64,000 nt of DNA from Bradyrhizobium diazoefficiens. Its GTDB lineage: Bacteria > Pseudomonadota > Alphaproteobacteria > Rhizobiales > Xanthobacteraceae. A model generated the notes under the pieces. The model saw only the letters and a program-made list of their open reading frames with translations. It had not been told where the DNA came from and did no database searches. The DNA lies in assembly GCF_016616425.1 (NCBI RefSeq), contig NZ_CP067101.1:868001-932000 (forward strand). The letters run 5' to 3'. The position numbers were made by a program, and so were the translations under genes. Below are positions 155 through 52,312 of this stretch, one piece after another. Each line of letters opens with the position of its first letter. Position 1 is the stretch's first letter.

Positions 155-3100
155 CAGGCCACCGCCGCCTCCGGCATGACGTCCCGGCTGAACAGTCTTC
201 GTACTTCGCTGGCCGGCTTCGGCGCGCTGAACAGATAGCCCTGCATCTGCGTGCAGCCGAGCGCGCGCAGCATCTCGCGCTGCGCCTCGGTCTCGACGCC
301 TTCGGCCACCGTGGTCATGCTGCTGGCGGCCGCGATGTTCACCACCGCCTGCACGATCACGGGTGCGCCGCTCGTCTCCGCGATGTCGGCGACGAAGCAG
401 CGGTCGATCTTGATCTTGTCGAACGGGAAGCGCTTGAGATAGCTGAGCGAGGAATAGCCGGTGCCGAAATCGTCGAGCGCGATGCGCACGCCGATCGAAC
501 GGAGCTGGTGCAGGATCGAGAGCGCAGCGTCGTCGTCGCGGATCAGCACGGCCTCTGTGATCTCCAGCTCGAGCCGGCGCGGGTCCAGCCCGGAGGCCGC
601 GAGTGCACCCGCGATCCGCAGCGCCAGCGTGTCGCATTTGAGCTGCACCGGCGAAACGTTGACCGCGACGTGCACATGCGTGGGCCATGTCGCGGCCTCG
701 TTGCAGGCCATGCGCAGCACCCAGTCGCCGAGCTCGTTGATCAGGCCGGTGTCCTCGGCGACGGGAATGAACTCGGCCGGCGACACCATGCCGCGCTCGG
801 GGTGCCGCCAGCGCAGCAGCGCCTCGCAGCCCGACACCTCGTTGGTGCGCAGGTCGACCAGCGGCTGATAGTGAATCTCGAAACCGCCGTTCAGCAGGGC
901 CTGCCGCAGGTCCTGCTCCATGCTGAGGCGCGCCCTGGCGCATGCATCCATTTCCGGCTCGAAGAAGCGGTGGGTGCGACGCCCCCCGGCCTTGGCGCCG
1001 TACATCGCGAGGTCGGCGTTCTTGACGAGCTGGTCGAGATCGGTGCCGTCCTGCGGCGCCAGCGCGATCCCGATGCTCGCGTCGGTGGAGAGCTGATGGC
1101 CGAGACAATGATAGGGCTGTCGGATTGCATCATAGATCCGTGTCACGAAGGACAGCACGTCGGCAGGCGACTGGATTGCCGTCTGGATCACGGCGAACTC
1201 GTCGCCGCCGAGCCGCGCGATCAGGTCACCCTGCTTGAGGCAGCCGCGGAGGCGGCCCGCGATCGCCTTCAACAGCTCGTCGCCGACATGGTGGCCGAGC
1301 GAATCGTTGATGCCCTTGAATTCGTCGACGTCGATGTAGAGCAGCGCGAACTGACCGCCGCCGGCGACCTTCGCCAGCTCCCGTTCGATCTGCTCGCGGA
1401 ACAGCGTCCGGTTCGGCAGGTCGGTCAGCGCATCGTAATGCGCCATATGTGCGATCTTCTCGTGGGCGCGGCGCCGCTCGGTGACGTCCTCGACGACGTT
1501 GATGAGGTAGCGCGGTTCGCCGGACTCGTCCCGGATGCCGATTCGCGTGGAGGTGACATAGCGCAGCCCCTTGGCCTGGCTCGCCCAGGGATGTTCGTCC
1601 TTGAACAATCCCTTGTCCTTCTGCAGCGCCATGCTGTCGTCCTCCATGACGAGCCTGGCGGAGTTCTCCGGATAGATGTCCCATGGGGTCTTGCCGACGA
1701 CGGTTTCGCGCGATTGGCCGAATTCCTCCTCGGCCGTCCGGTTGATCAGCAGATATTGCCGCGTTCGGGCGTCCTTCACCATGATCTGCGAAGGGATGTG
1801 ATCGATGATCTCGCGCAGGAACGTGTAGTTGCGGTCGCGTTCCTGCTCCAGATTGCGCCGATCGGTGATCTCCTCGATCGTGGCGACCCAGCCGCCCCGT
1901 GCCAGCGGGGTGTTGATGACCTCGAAGGCGCGGCCGTCGGCCAGCTGATGAGTTCTCGTGGACACCGTACCCTCGGCGACGACCCTCATGACGTCGGCGC
2001 AAAATTCCTCGACGTCGCCGTCAAACGCGCCGCGCTCCTTGCGATGATACATCGCATCCAGAATGTGACAGCCGGGCTTGATGACGTCGTGGGATAGGCC
2101 GAACATGTCGGCGTATCGCCGGTTGCATGTGACGATGTATCCGGCGGCGTCGTACAGGATCAGCCCCTGGGTCATGTTGTTCAAGGCGGTGTCGAGCCGC
2201 AATCGCTCCGCTTCCAGCCGTTCCTGCGCTTCGCGGTTCTGCCGGTTGATAAGGCGAATGATCAGATAGAGGATCAGCGCGATGACGACAGCCGAAAGTG
2301 CGGCGGTGGTCACCATGAAGCCGGTCTGCTGTCGCCAGTCGGCAAGCGCTGCAGCCGTGGTGTCGGTGGCGACGATGACCAGCGGGAAGTGCGTCAGCAA
2401 CGCGGCGGAGCCGAGCCGCTCCTCGCCGTCAACCGGACTGTTGCCGCGGAGCGTCAGCCGGCCGCCGCTGGCCAGCACCTTCTGCATCAGCGGCGTATCC
2501 TTGAAGCTCCGCCCGATCAGTGCTTCGACATGCGGATAGCGCGCCAGCATCTTGCCTTCGCGATCGAACAGCGAGATGGCCGTGCCCTCGGCAAGCGCGA
2601 CAGATGCGAAATAATGCTGGTAGCTGTCCGGATTGATCCGGCGGACCATCGCGCCGAGGAAAGTGCCGTCCGCCCCGTTCAGCCGGCGCGCGACGATCGT
2701 GGTCCATTTGTTGATGATGAAGCTGCGGACGGATTCCAGCAGCACCGGTTCGGACCGTGGATTCGTCTTGAACGTCTGAAAGTAGGCCCGGGACGAAACG
2801 TTGATCTTGGGCAGCGGCTGGGCCCGCGACCAGTTGATCAGTGCGCCTTCGGCATCGTAGATTGCGATATCGCCGAGATAGGACACGGAGCTGCTGACCT
2901 TGCTCCGCAGCATCTGGTTCGTCGCGGGCCCGGCCATGCGCTCGCGGAACATCGCCGGCGAGGTGATCTCCGCCAGGTTCATCTGCCCGATCAGATCGGC
3001 GGCGACGACGTCGGAATCTTCGAATTGCTGATCGAAATGCCGCGCGATCAGCTGCACGGTTTTTTCCAGCTCGCGTTCGCGATTGGCCAGGGTGCGCTCG

Positions 3101-3264
3101 CGAAATTCGCCGACGGCCATGGCGGTCACGGCGAAGATACCTGCAACCAGCAACACGCCGCACAGGGTCAGCCACAGGACCGGACCACGCCGCGCCAGGA
3201 CCTCCCAGCCGTTCCTTGCGGCTAGAGACGTTCCGGTTGCGACCGTGGAAAAGACCTGACGCAT
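154..3264 (-). CDS. Membrane-bound Cache-PAS-PAS-GGDEF-EAL cyclic-di-GMP enzyme
   Basis: Predicted bifunctional diguanylate cyclase/phosphodiesterase of 1036 residues. The ATG at 3264 is preferred over an upstream in-frame start because GGGAGA precedes it. Order: transmembrane helix at about 27-52, periplasmic dCache-like sensor to about 300, second helix at about 318-340, a PAS-7-type domain (about 355-470), a second PAS (about 480-600), GGDEF at 686-690, EAL at 814-816 (CEALLRW), and the DDFGTG metal-binding loop at 931-936. Both catalytic signatures are intact, so both activities are possible. The inhibitory I-site position reads KQGD rather than RxxD, suggesting weak product feedback. It is coupled by TGATG to the next PAS protein and follows another GGDEF-EAL gene on the same strand. 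Confidence 0.93.
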   Translation of the reverse strand: MRQVFSTVATGTSLAARNGWEVLARRGPVLWLTLCGVLLVAGIFAVTAMAVGEFRERTLANRERELEKTVQLIARHFDQQFEDSDVVAADLIGQMNLAEITSPAMFRERMAGPATNQMLRSKVSSSVSYLGDIAIYDAEGALINWSRAQPLPKINVSSRAYFQTFKTNPRSEPVLLESVRSFIINKWTTIVARRLNGADGTFLGAMVRRINPDSYQHYFASVALAEGTAISLFDREGKMLARYPHVEALIGRSFKDTPLMQKVLASGGRLTLRGNSPVDGEERLGSAALLTHFPLVIVATDTTAAALADWRQQTGFMVTTAALSAVVIALILYLIIRLINRQNREAQERLEAERLRLDTALNNMTQGLILYDAAGYIVTCNRRYADMFGLSHDVIKPGCHILDAMYHRKERGAFDGDVEEFCADVMRVVAEGTVSTRTHQLADGRAFEVINTPLARGGWVATIEEITDRRNLEQERDRNYTFLREIIDHIPSQIMVKDARTRQYLLINRTAEEEFGQSRETVVGKTPWDIYPENSARLVMEDDSMALQKDKGLFKDEHPWASQAKGLRYVTSTRIGIRDESGEPRYLINVVEDVTERRRAHEKIAHMAHYDALTDLPNRTLFREQIERELAKVAGGGQFALLYIDVDEFKGINDSLGHHVGDELLKAIAGRLRGCLKQGDLIARLGGDEFAVIQTAIQSPADVLSFVTRIYDAIRQPYHCLGHQLSTDASIGIALAPQDGTDLDQLVKNADLAMYGAKAGGRRTHRFFEPEMDACARARLSMEQDLRQALLNGGFEIHYQPLVDLRTNEVSGCEALLRWRHPERGMVSPAEFIPVAEDTGLINELGDWVLRMACNEAATWPTHVHVAVNVSPVQLKCDTLALRIAGALAASGLDPRRLELEITEAVLIRDDDAALSILHQLRSIGVRIALDDFGTGYSSLSYLKRFPFDKIKIDRCFVADIAETSGAPVIVQAVVNIAAASSMTTVAEGVETEAQREMLRALGCTQMQGYLFSAPKPASEVRRLFSRDVMPEAAVA

Positions 3265-51461: not shown

Positions 51462-51884
51462 TCAGCATGTAATCGTGCTGACTTGGCCTGTCTCTCCATA
51501 TCTCAACAGCAGGCCATCCCGAGTAATCACGCTCGCGCCAAGGTCGCGAGCGGTTGCAATGATGATTCGATCCGCGGGATCGCGAGGCGGCTCTCCCGGC
51601 AAGAATGACGACGCGATCAGGAGATCAGGCGTGAGTTCGGCGAGCCGTATTCCCTCGACAGCAAGCAGCCGCTGAAACCAGCGTTCTGGTCTTGTGGAGA
51701 GGCCCAATCGGTTGCGTGCAACGAGCAAGCCGACTTCCCATGCCGTAATTGCGGAGACAAAGATTGCCGTTCCCGCACGATAGGCAGCCTCAATCGCCTC
51801 TCTTGCCTCGGGGGCGATGGGCTTGTCCTCTACAATCCAAATCGCCGCGTGCGTATCGAGCAGAAGAGGCGCCACCTCATTCAT
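51462..51884 (-). CDS. vapC: PIN-domain ribonuclease toxin, VapC type
   Basis: A 140-residue PIN protein. The four acidic residues are visible: Asp10 (LLLDTHAAIW), Glu50 (ITAWEVG), Asp102/Asp105 (RDPADRIII) and Asp123 (VITRDG). This is the type II VapC arrangement of an Mg2+-dependent RNase that cuts tRNA or other RNA. Its start overlaps the upstream antitoxin gene by eight bases, a typical toxin-antitoxin junction. A helix AREAIEAAYRAG follows the first strand. Confidence 0.93.
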   Translation of the reverse strand: MNEVAPLLLDTHAAIWIVEDKPIAPEAREAIEAAYRAGTAIFVSAITAWEVGLLVARNRLGLSTRPERWFQRLLAVEGIRLAELTPDLLIASSFLPGEPPRDPADRIIIATARDLGASVITRDGLLLRYGETGQVSTITC

Positions 51885-52266
51885 AGACTTTGCCCCAGTC
51901 GGGATCTGCCGGTTCGGTCAGATCTACGCTCGGTGGAATATGTGCCAATCCTTTGAGCGCGCCGAACAGCGGATGGCGACCAAGCTTCCTGGAGCGCGAG
52001 GGCGAAGGCTCCGCGGAACTCGACTCAACCCGCCGGAACACGACCTTGCGGGCCTTCGTGTCGACCTGCTCGGTACGGAAACCTGCGGCTAGCCAGACCT
52101 TGGTCATGACATTGTTCGTCGGGTTATTGCTCCACCAAGCTGGATATTGAGGTGAGCTGGGGGGCAACTTGCTTCCGATGACCCGCTCGATTTCGGCAAA
52201 GGTCATAGGTACCTCCTTGGTCCGCTGGGACTTCAGAAACTCACCAAGTCGCTCATACTTGCCCAT
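51877..52266 (-). CDS. Probable antitoxin with DUF7662-type N-terminal domain
   Basis: A 129-residue protein, the first gene of the pair. Residues 1-83 read MGKYERLGEFLKSQ, then VPMTFAEIERVIGSKLPPSS, AWWSNN, VMTKVWLAAGFRTEQVDTKA and RKVVFRRV, which resembles the DUF7662 domain rather than the usual AbrB, Phd or RHH antitoxin folds. Residues 84-129 form a basic linker and an acidic tail (DLTEPADPDWGKVYE) suited to fill the toxin active site. A 24-base palindrome lies just upstream of its start, so it probably autoregulates. The antitoxin role is inferred from the eight-base overlap with vapC. Confidence 0.78.
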   Translation of the reverse strand: MGKYERLGEFLKSQRTKEVPMTFAEIERVIGSKLPPSSPQYPAWWSNNPTNNVMTKVWLAAGFRTEQVDTKARKVVFRRVESSSAEPSPSRSRKLGRHPLFGALKGLAHIPPSVDLTEPADPDWGKVYE

Positions 52267-52288
52267 AGCGAACCCTCCACGAGGCCAT

Positions 52289-52312
52289 ACACTATTAAAG
52301 CTTTATAAGTGT
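52289..52312. promoter_or_regulatory. Operator-like palindrome of the toxin-antitoxin pair
   Basis: A 24-base dyad: outer arms ACACT and AGTGT, inner core AAAGCTTT, with ATT/ATA as the only imperfect part. It lies 23 bases upstream of the antitoxin start and probably overlaps the promoter. It is AT-rich, unlike its surroundings. Confidence 0.7.

Follow-up and report, generated by a model that had tools for sequence, protein, structure and literature searches.

The 64,000-nucleotide stretch of Bradyrhizobium diazoefficiens DNA analysed here, called the window in what follows, holds between positions 51462 and 52312 a pair of small overlapping genes on the reverse strand, preceded by a palindrome, whose arrangement recalls that of VapBC toxin-antitoxin operons. 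The downstream gene (51462..51884) encodes a VapC-like protein of 140 amino acids with a PIN domain (PF01850, 59.6 bits against a cut-off of 23.6), whose acidic residues D10, E50, D102, D105 and D123 are invariant in an alignment of 24 sequences. The upstream gene (51877..52266), the candidate antitoxin, encodes 129 amino acids and carries the domain DUF7662 at residues 4-79 (52030..52257, reverse strand; PF24698, 57 bits against a cut-off of 26). A preliminary description made from the letters of the window had pointed out that the two genes overlap by eight bases and that the N-terminal part of the upstream product resembles DUF7662, and both points are borne out by the coordinates of the open reading frames (ORFs) and by the Pfam match. 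At E≤1 Pfam lists DUF7662 alone for this protein, with no match to the AbrB, ribbon-helix-helix (RHH) or Phd/YefM families; NCBIfam and PADLOC models gave zero matches to either protein at the same threshold, and no PDB chain was matched by the antitoxin profile (E≤10), the PIN profile (E≤1e-5) or the PIN sequence (E≤1). Behind the domain comes a C-terminal tail (residues 98-124, HPLFGALKG...VDLTEPADPDW; 51895..51975, reverse strand) that presumably neutralises the toxin. This part had been described as an acidic tail ending in DPDWGKVYE; the ending is as described, whereas the acidic character is only mild.

The association of the two genes is conserved well beyond this genome. A scan of the named genomes of GTDB, with an alignment of tail-bearing proteins as query, retained the best 80 of at least 232 relatives, and in all 80 of these loci a PIN gene lies directly downstream of the DUF7662 gene, the PIN domain starting between 22 nt before and 30 nt after the end of the antitoxin. 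Most of the loci (76/80) belong to Alphaproteobacteria by NCBI rank, and 41 of the 80 bear one of 22 genus names, of which Frankia is doubtful, the other 39 bearing no genus name. The locus titled Frankia sp. RB7 is Bradyrhizobium-like, with an ispG gene at 96% and a TauD-family gene at 94% identity, so that its label is probably wrong or its assembly mixed. Because a tail-bearing query is silent on tail-less copies, samples collected by the domain alone were added. Among 117 genomes of the genus, 88 had a DUF7662 match, and every one of the 116 matches was inspected: 83 are of a short common type, 19 are other tail-less copies, 11 bear the tail, one was below threshold and not recognised, and two (L035 and L215), flagged as tailed by a loose pattern, have no such tail and were counted as tail-less. 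A PIN gene follows 11 of the 11 tail-bearing copies against none of the 104 tail-less ones, as judged with a PIN profile built from five toxins of this subfamily, which a distant PIN type beside a tail-less copy could escape; no distant PIN was seen by eye in the ORFs next to tail-less copies of the first-fetched genus loci, to which this inspection was confined. Outside the genus, in class and phylum samples likewise collected by the domain, 12 of 21 DUF7662 copies adjoin a PIN gene, eight of them with this tail and four with other tails (L010, L012, L043 and L045, the PIN match of the last lying under the Pfam cut-off).

Toxin pairing thus goes with the tail, since the tail-less copies of the genus do not adjoin this PIN type. 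In this regard, the preliminary description had proposed an antitoxin class with DUF7662 as its DNA-binding module, the pairing to be taken as accidental if DUF7662 genes were rarely next to toxin genes. The proposal is supported for DUF7662 joined to a C-terminal tail, copies of which are invariably paired in both the genus and the GTDB samples, and falls for DUF7662 alone. DUF7662 in general as an antitoxin family was therefore rejected, and the class is better defined by domain plus tail.

The tail itself has the consensus HPxFGCMKGTVTIxxGVDLTxPADPDW. Its profile gave 18 matches in 17 of 150 genomes of the order: 15 are on DUF7662 proteins, 14 of which have a PIN gene (none was found for L255 by the filter used), one more (L250) is a tail not accompanied by DUF7662, nor was a PIN gene found adjoining it, and the remaining two are response regulators matched by chance. 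Against PDB the tail profile found RecB chains only, at E 1, again by chance. Moreover, a toxin profile picked up other PIN genes of lower similarity; of the 11 such loci inspected, ten had an upstream partner, and four of these partners carry related tails: L149 (25.8 bits) and L150 (18.6 bits), one protein type in two genomes, which we label RHH-like ourselves, as L149 has no Pfam family at E≤0.01 and L150 only sub-cut-off matches to PSK_trans_fac and VapB_antitoxin, and L151 (19.9 bits) and L153 (15.8 bits), both above the Pfam cut-off for Phd/YefM. Three of the other six partners gave no match and three reached 5.8-8.9 bits, the best of 1000 shuffles being 6.7. Two tail copies per protein occur in 3 of the 120 database relatives listed (P0015, P0032 and P0047, of 187-192 amino acids); no such protein was found among the 121 tail-bearing ORFs of the fetched loci.

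A 24-base AT-rich palindrome had also been reported just before the antitoxin start, and it is indeed found at 52289-52312 (ACACTTATAAAGCTTTAATAGTGT on the reverse strand). The palindrome is imperfect, with 10 of 12 pairs matching and 18 of 24 bases A or T, and its strength was reached by none of 60 dinucleotide shuffles (z 3.4). When up to 3 mismatches are allowed, the window contains no second copy (0 in 100 shuffles), and the 7.14-Mb genome has the 20-base core a single time; the core recurs upstream of close relatives. Its position is that of a presumed operator, between a −35-like box and the start codon: it shares its first base with the end of a perfect TTGACA (52317-52312, reverse strand), an abutment that the preliminary description did not contain. 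Within the palindrome, 17 nt past the box, TAGTGT (52294-52289, reverse strand) offers a weak −10-like hexamer that matches TATAAT at 3 of 6 positions; a scan for sigma-70 promoters called none at this TTGACA/TAGTGT combination. The Shine-Dalgarno-like GGAGGG (52273..52278, reverse strand) follows, 6 nt ahead of the ATG.

The palindromes or repeats found close to a TTGAC box differ among the upstream regions of related loci. Of 77 non-redundant regions, 42 contain TTGAC, mostly 49-66 nt ahead of the start codon; mononucleotide shuffles gave 5.1. Palindromes with p≤0.05 against dinucleotide shuffles occur in 24 of the 77 regions versus 24 of 152 control upstream regions drawn from the 80 named loci (Fisher p 0.01), so that the enrichment is modest once real upstream regions serve as the control.

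These promoters vary together with the protein. For 69 non-redundant loci, promoter similarity was measured by shared 7-mers, with no motif definition and with PIN identity regressed out, and compared with 60 columns of DUF7662, 116 of PIN and 28 of the tail. The best predictors of promoter similarity are the DUF7662 columns 42, 39, 52, 38, 41 and 40 (z 7.6 to 5.6), followed by columns 5, 32, 36 and 37 (z 4.8 to 4.3), which makes ten columns above z 4; none of the PIN and tail columns exceeds z 2.9 with 7-mers, and with 8-mers one PIN column reaches 3.6. Control DNA carries a lineage signal of its own: in the far-upstream stretch DUF7662 73 ranks first (z 4.0), and downstream of the toxin DUF7662 39 (z 5.7), DUF7662 73 (z 5.4) and PIN 126 (z 5.0) stand out. 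Both controls have columns 39 and 40 among their ten best, whereas 38, 41, 42 and 52 appear in neither list and are for this reason taken as promoter-specific. Motif classes made by hand for 70 non-redundant loci, and written after the sequences had been read, agree with particular residues: of the 19 loci with S52, 18 carry a GTAAC/GTAC-type motif, which 6 of the 51 loci lacking S52 also have; of the 10 with P53, 8 carry AGCTKTA, which is found in 4 of the 60 without P53. There are exceptions, such as loci that combine N52 with a GTAAC site, and on a tree of the toxin, residue 52 and operator class change in the right direction in the small number of independent pairs with support, without reaching significance.

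An AlphaFold2 model gives DUF7662 a winged-helix topology. The lists obtained by structure comparison are led by the winged helices of RepE, the pi initiator, CtsR, CodY and AbfR, in which helices and strands follow the same order as in the model, although the fold matches are weak. In this model the covarying columns fall in the loop before the last helix and at the start of that helix. Several of them belong to residues 36-43 (52138..52161, reverse strand), a loop with short helices preceding the last DUF7662 helix, and columns 52 and 53 belong to residues 52-54 (52105..52113, reverse strand), at the start of what is presumably the recognition helix. Judging from known folds, this would be where a helix-turn-helix (HTH) reads DNA. 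The earlier suggestion that DUF7662 is the DNA-binding module of the antitoxin thus gains support, both from the predicted topology, weak as its matches are, and from the covariation of promoters with DUF7662 residues.

Altogether, the locus is best read as a VapBC-like toxin-antitoxin module with DUF7662 as its reader, an interpretation that we hold with considerable confidence. The two genes would form a type II operon with the product of the downstream PIN gene as toxin, presumably acting as an RNase, and that of the upstream gene as antitoxin. The N-terminal DUF7662, probably with dimerisation, would shut the operon's own promoter by binding the palindrome located past the −35 box and ahead of the start codon, and the C-terminal tail (GxxKGxxxI-xxxVDLTEPADPDW) would lie on the toxin and block it.

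The same protein could be an antitoxin built the other way round, with DUF7662 holding the toxin or only dimerising, and with the binding of DNA left to the toxin, as reported for VapC-1 of Haemophilus influenzae, or to some other surface. The weak matches of DUF7662 to winged helices would fit such an arrangement, and a VapBC pair in which the toxin and not the antitoxin binds DNA is reported in the available sections of a review (PMC4803016). Set against this, promoters covary more strongly with DUF7662 columns than with any column of PIN or tail, and toxin pairing in the genus sample tracks the tail; we consider this arrangement improbable.

The distribution of the pair bears on another alternative. 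The pair is present in 11 of the 117 genomes of the genus, and in 16 of 17 loci from or near the genus (some being one genome in two collections) it lies beside ispG and/or a TauD-family gene. Neither gene was found in the 1.5 kb of locus L030 or within 2.5 kb in L103, a longer duplicate of it. In the window, the forward strand carries, according to Pfam, a GcpE (ispG) gene up to 51452 and a TauD-family dioxygenase gene from about 52400. A survey for vacant sites found an ispG match in 58 of 60 genus genomes, and the 29 best-matching besides the source genome were examined: in 26 the TauD-family gene is 140-478 bp away with no DUF7662 or PIN gene between, and the stretch examined in the other three yielded no TauD-family gene. 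The segment 51453..52384, present in this genome, is missing between the two neighbouring genes in all 26 informative others. Mobile insertion at scattered sites found no support in the genus, where 16 of 17 loci share the ispG/TauD neighbourhood. Repeated loss is likelier, since an otherwise vacant ispG-TauD site (L285, about 2988-3113) keeps the decayed relic of an antitoxin tail. Such a patchy and decaying distribution is as expected of a toxin-antitoxin locus, and not of a fresh insertion.

A pair of regulator and nuclease, in which DUF7662 acts as the repressor of a PIN RNase that serves housekeeping or phage defence and no toxin-antitoxin relation exists, would agree with the presence of DUF7662 alone and on other proteins. 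Speaking against this proposal are the overlap of the genes, the similarity of the tail to those of some antitoxins of PIN toxins, the patchy presence and the relic at the vacant site; neither protein matches a PADLOC defence model at E≤1, a result with which an undescribed defence role is still compatible. We rate it as unlikely, slightly more so than the exchange of roles considered above. That pairing or palindrome are accidental can practically be dismissed, for even though this toxin is absent beside the majority of DUF7662 genes in the genus, tail-bearing copies are paired in every case of both samples (11/11, and 80/80 of the best 80 of at least 232), and the palindrome core, unique in the genome, recurs upstream of close relatives.

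Beyond this toxin-antitoxin module, DUF7662 appears in several other settings. The short NDYDALRDYLMRQKQ type, which accounts for 83 of the 116 genus copies, is a single-domain protein that does not lie beside this toxin and is possibly a plain regulator; the genome of the window has one as its second, short DUF7662 protein (C1:1529198-1529431), of about 88 amino acids made up of the domain and its ends. Among phages and plasmids, matches were obtained on three viral contigs and in 13 plasmid records; they do not go past query residue 79, so none includes this tail. The viral contigs encode stand-alone DUF7662 proteins of 83-100 amino acids (L238, L239 and L240). The domain is also found at the end of longer open frames (L047 and L011) and, in the plasmid matches H6 and H13, under features annotated as HNH endonuclease or DUF4268; from these two kinds of context it looks like a general module. 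Plasmids of Thermococcus and Deinococcus match as well. Moreover, in L005/L012 (one locus), L010, L043 and L045 the C-terminal tails joined to DUF7662 are of other kinds, and a different PIN gene comes after each. A wider view, towards which we lean by a narrow margin, is that DUF7662 would be a portable winged-helix module for reading operators, with residues 36-42 and 52-54 deciding which sequence it chooses (S52 for GTAAC/GTAC, P53 for AGCTKTA), and would have been joined in evolution to at least three toxin-neutralising tails, each with its own PIN toxin, with reader, tail and toxin being swapped as blocks.

What is new in this picture is DUF7662 as a reader domain, the strict linkage of tail and toxin inside one domain family, and a specificity code open to testing. 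It would give an uncharacterised domain a likely function, add a DNA-binding class to the antitoxins of PIN toxins, and make a concrete prediction as to which few DUF7662 residues choose the operator. In the literature searched, which left most subscription papers and preprints outside its reach, neither DUF7662 nor PF24698 is mentioned by name, and no title or abstract opening found on PIN or VapC antitoxins names the DUF7662-PIN pair. The partners of PIN toxins given in the available part of the 2009 work of Makarova and others include RHH, AbrB, PHD, COG2442, COG2886, MerR, Xre and others, with DUF7662 not among them (PMC2701414), and the DNA-binding domains of antitoxins given in the available part of a 2016 review are HTH, RHH and SpoVT/AbrB, with Phd/YefM in its table (PMC4803016). 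TASmania, as far as its available description goes, is an automated survey that collected neighbours of known toxins as unnamed antitoxin candidates, and surveys of this type may already include some DUF7662-PIN pairs.

Among known systems, the closest likeness is to VapBC modules with VapB of the AbrB, RHH or Phd/YefM type. They share with the pair described here a PIN toxin with conserved acidic residues, a small antitoxin gene that comes first and overlaps the toxin gene, an antitoxin made of an N-terminal part, here predicted to bind DNA, and a C-terminal tail, and a palindrome over the promoter; what differs is that the presumed DNA-binding part is DUF7662. In the VapBC of Shigella flexneri, according to the portion of that study available, the VapB tail wraps VapC, and the operators overlap the −35 box and polymerase sites (PMC3384007). 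A second comparison is offered by the COG2442 (DUF433) proteins, antitoxins of PIN toxins predicted from gene neighbourhood, whose domain is termed a DNA-binding one of the winged-HTH superfamily in the accessible text of the source (PMC2701414), although DUF433 does not match this antitoxin in Pfam at E≤1. The Phd/YefM antitoxins of PIN toxins come near from the opposite end of the protein: the C-terminal GALKGxVxI... tails of L151 and L153 match the DUF7662 tail profile, whereas other Phd-like partners match it weakly or not at all, and the place of the N-terminal Phd fold is taken here by DUF7662.
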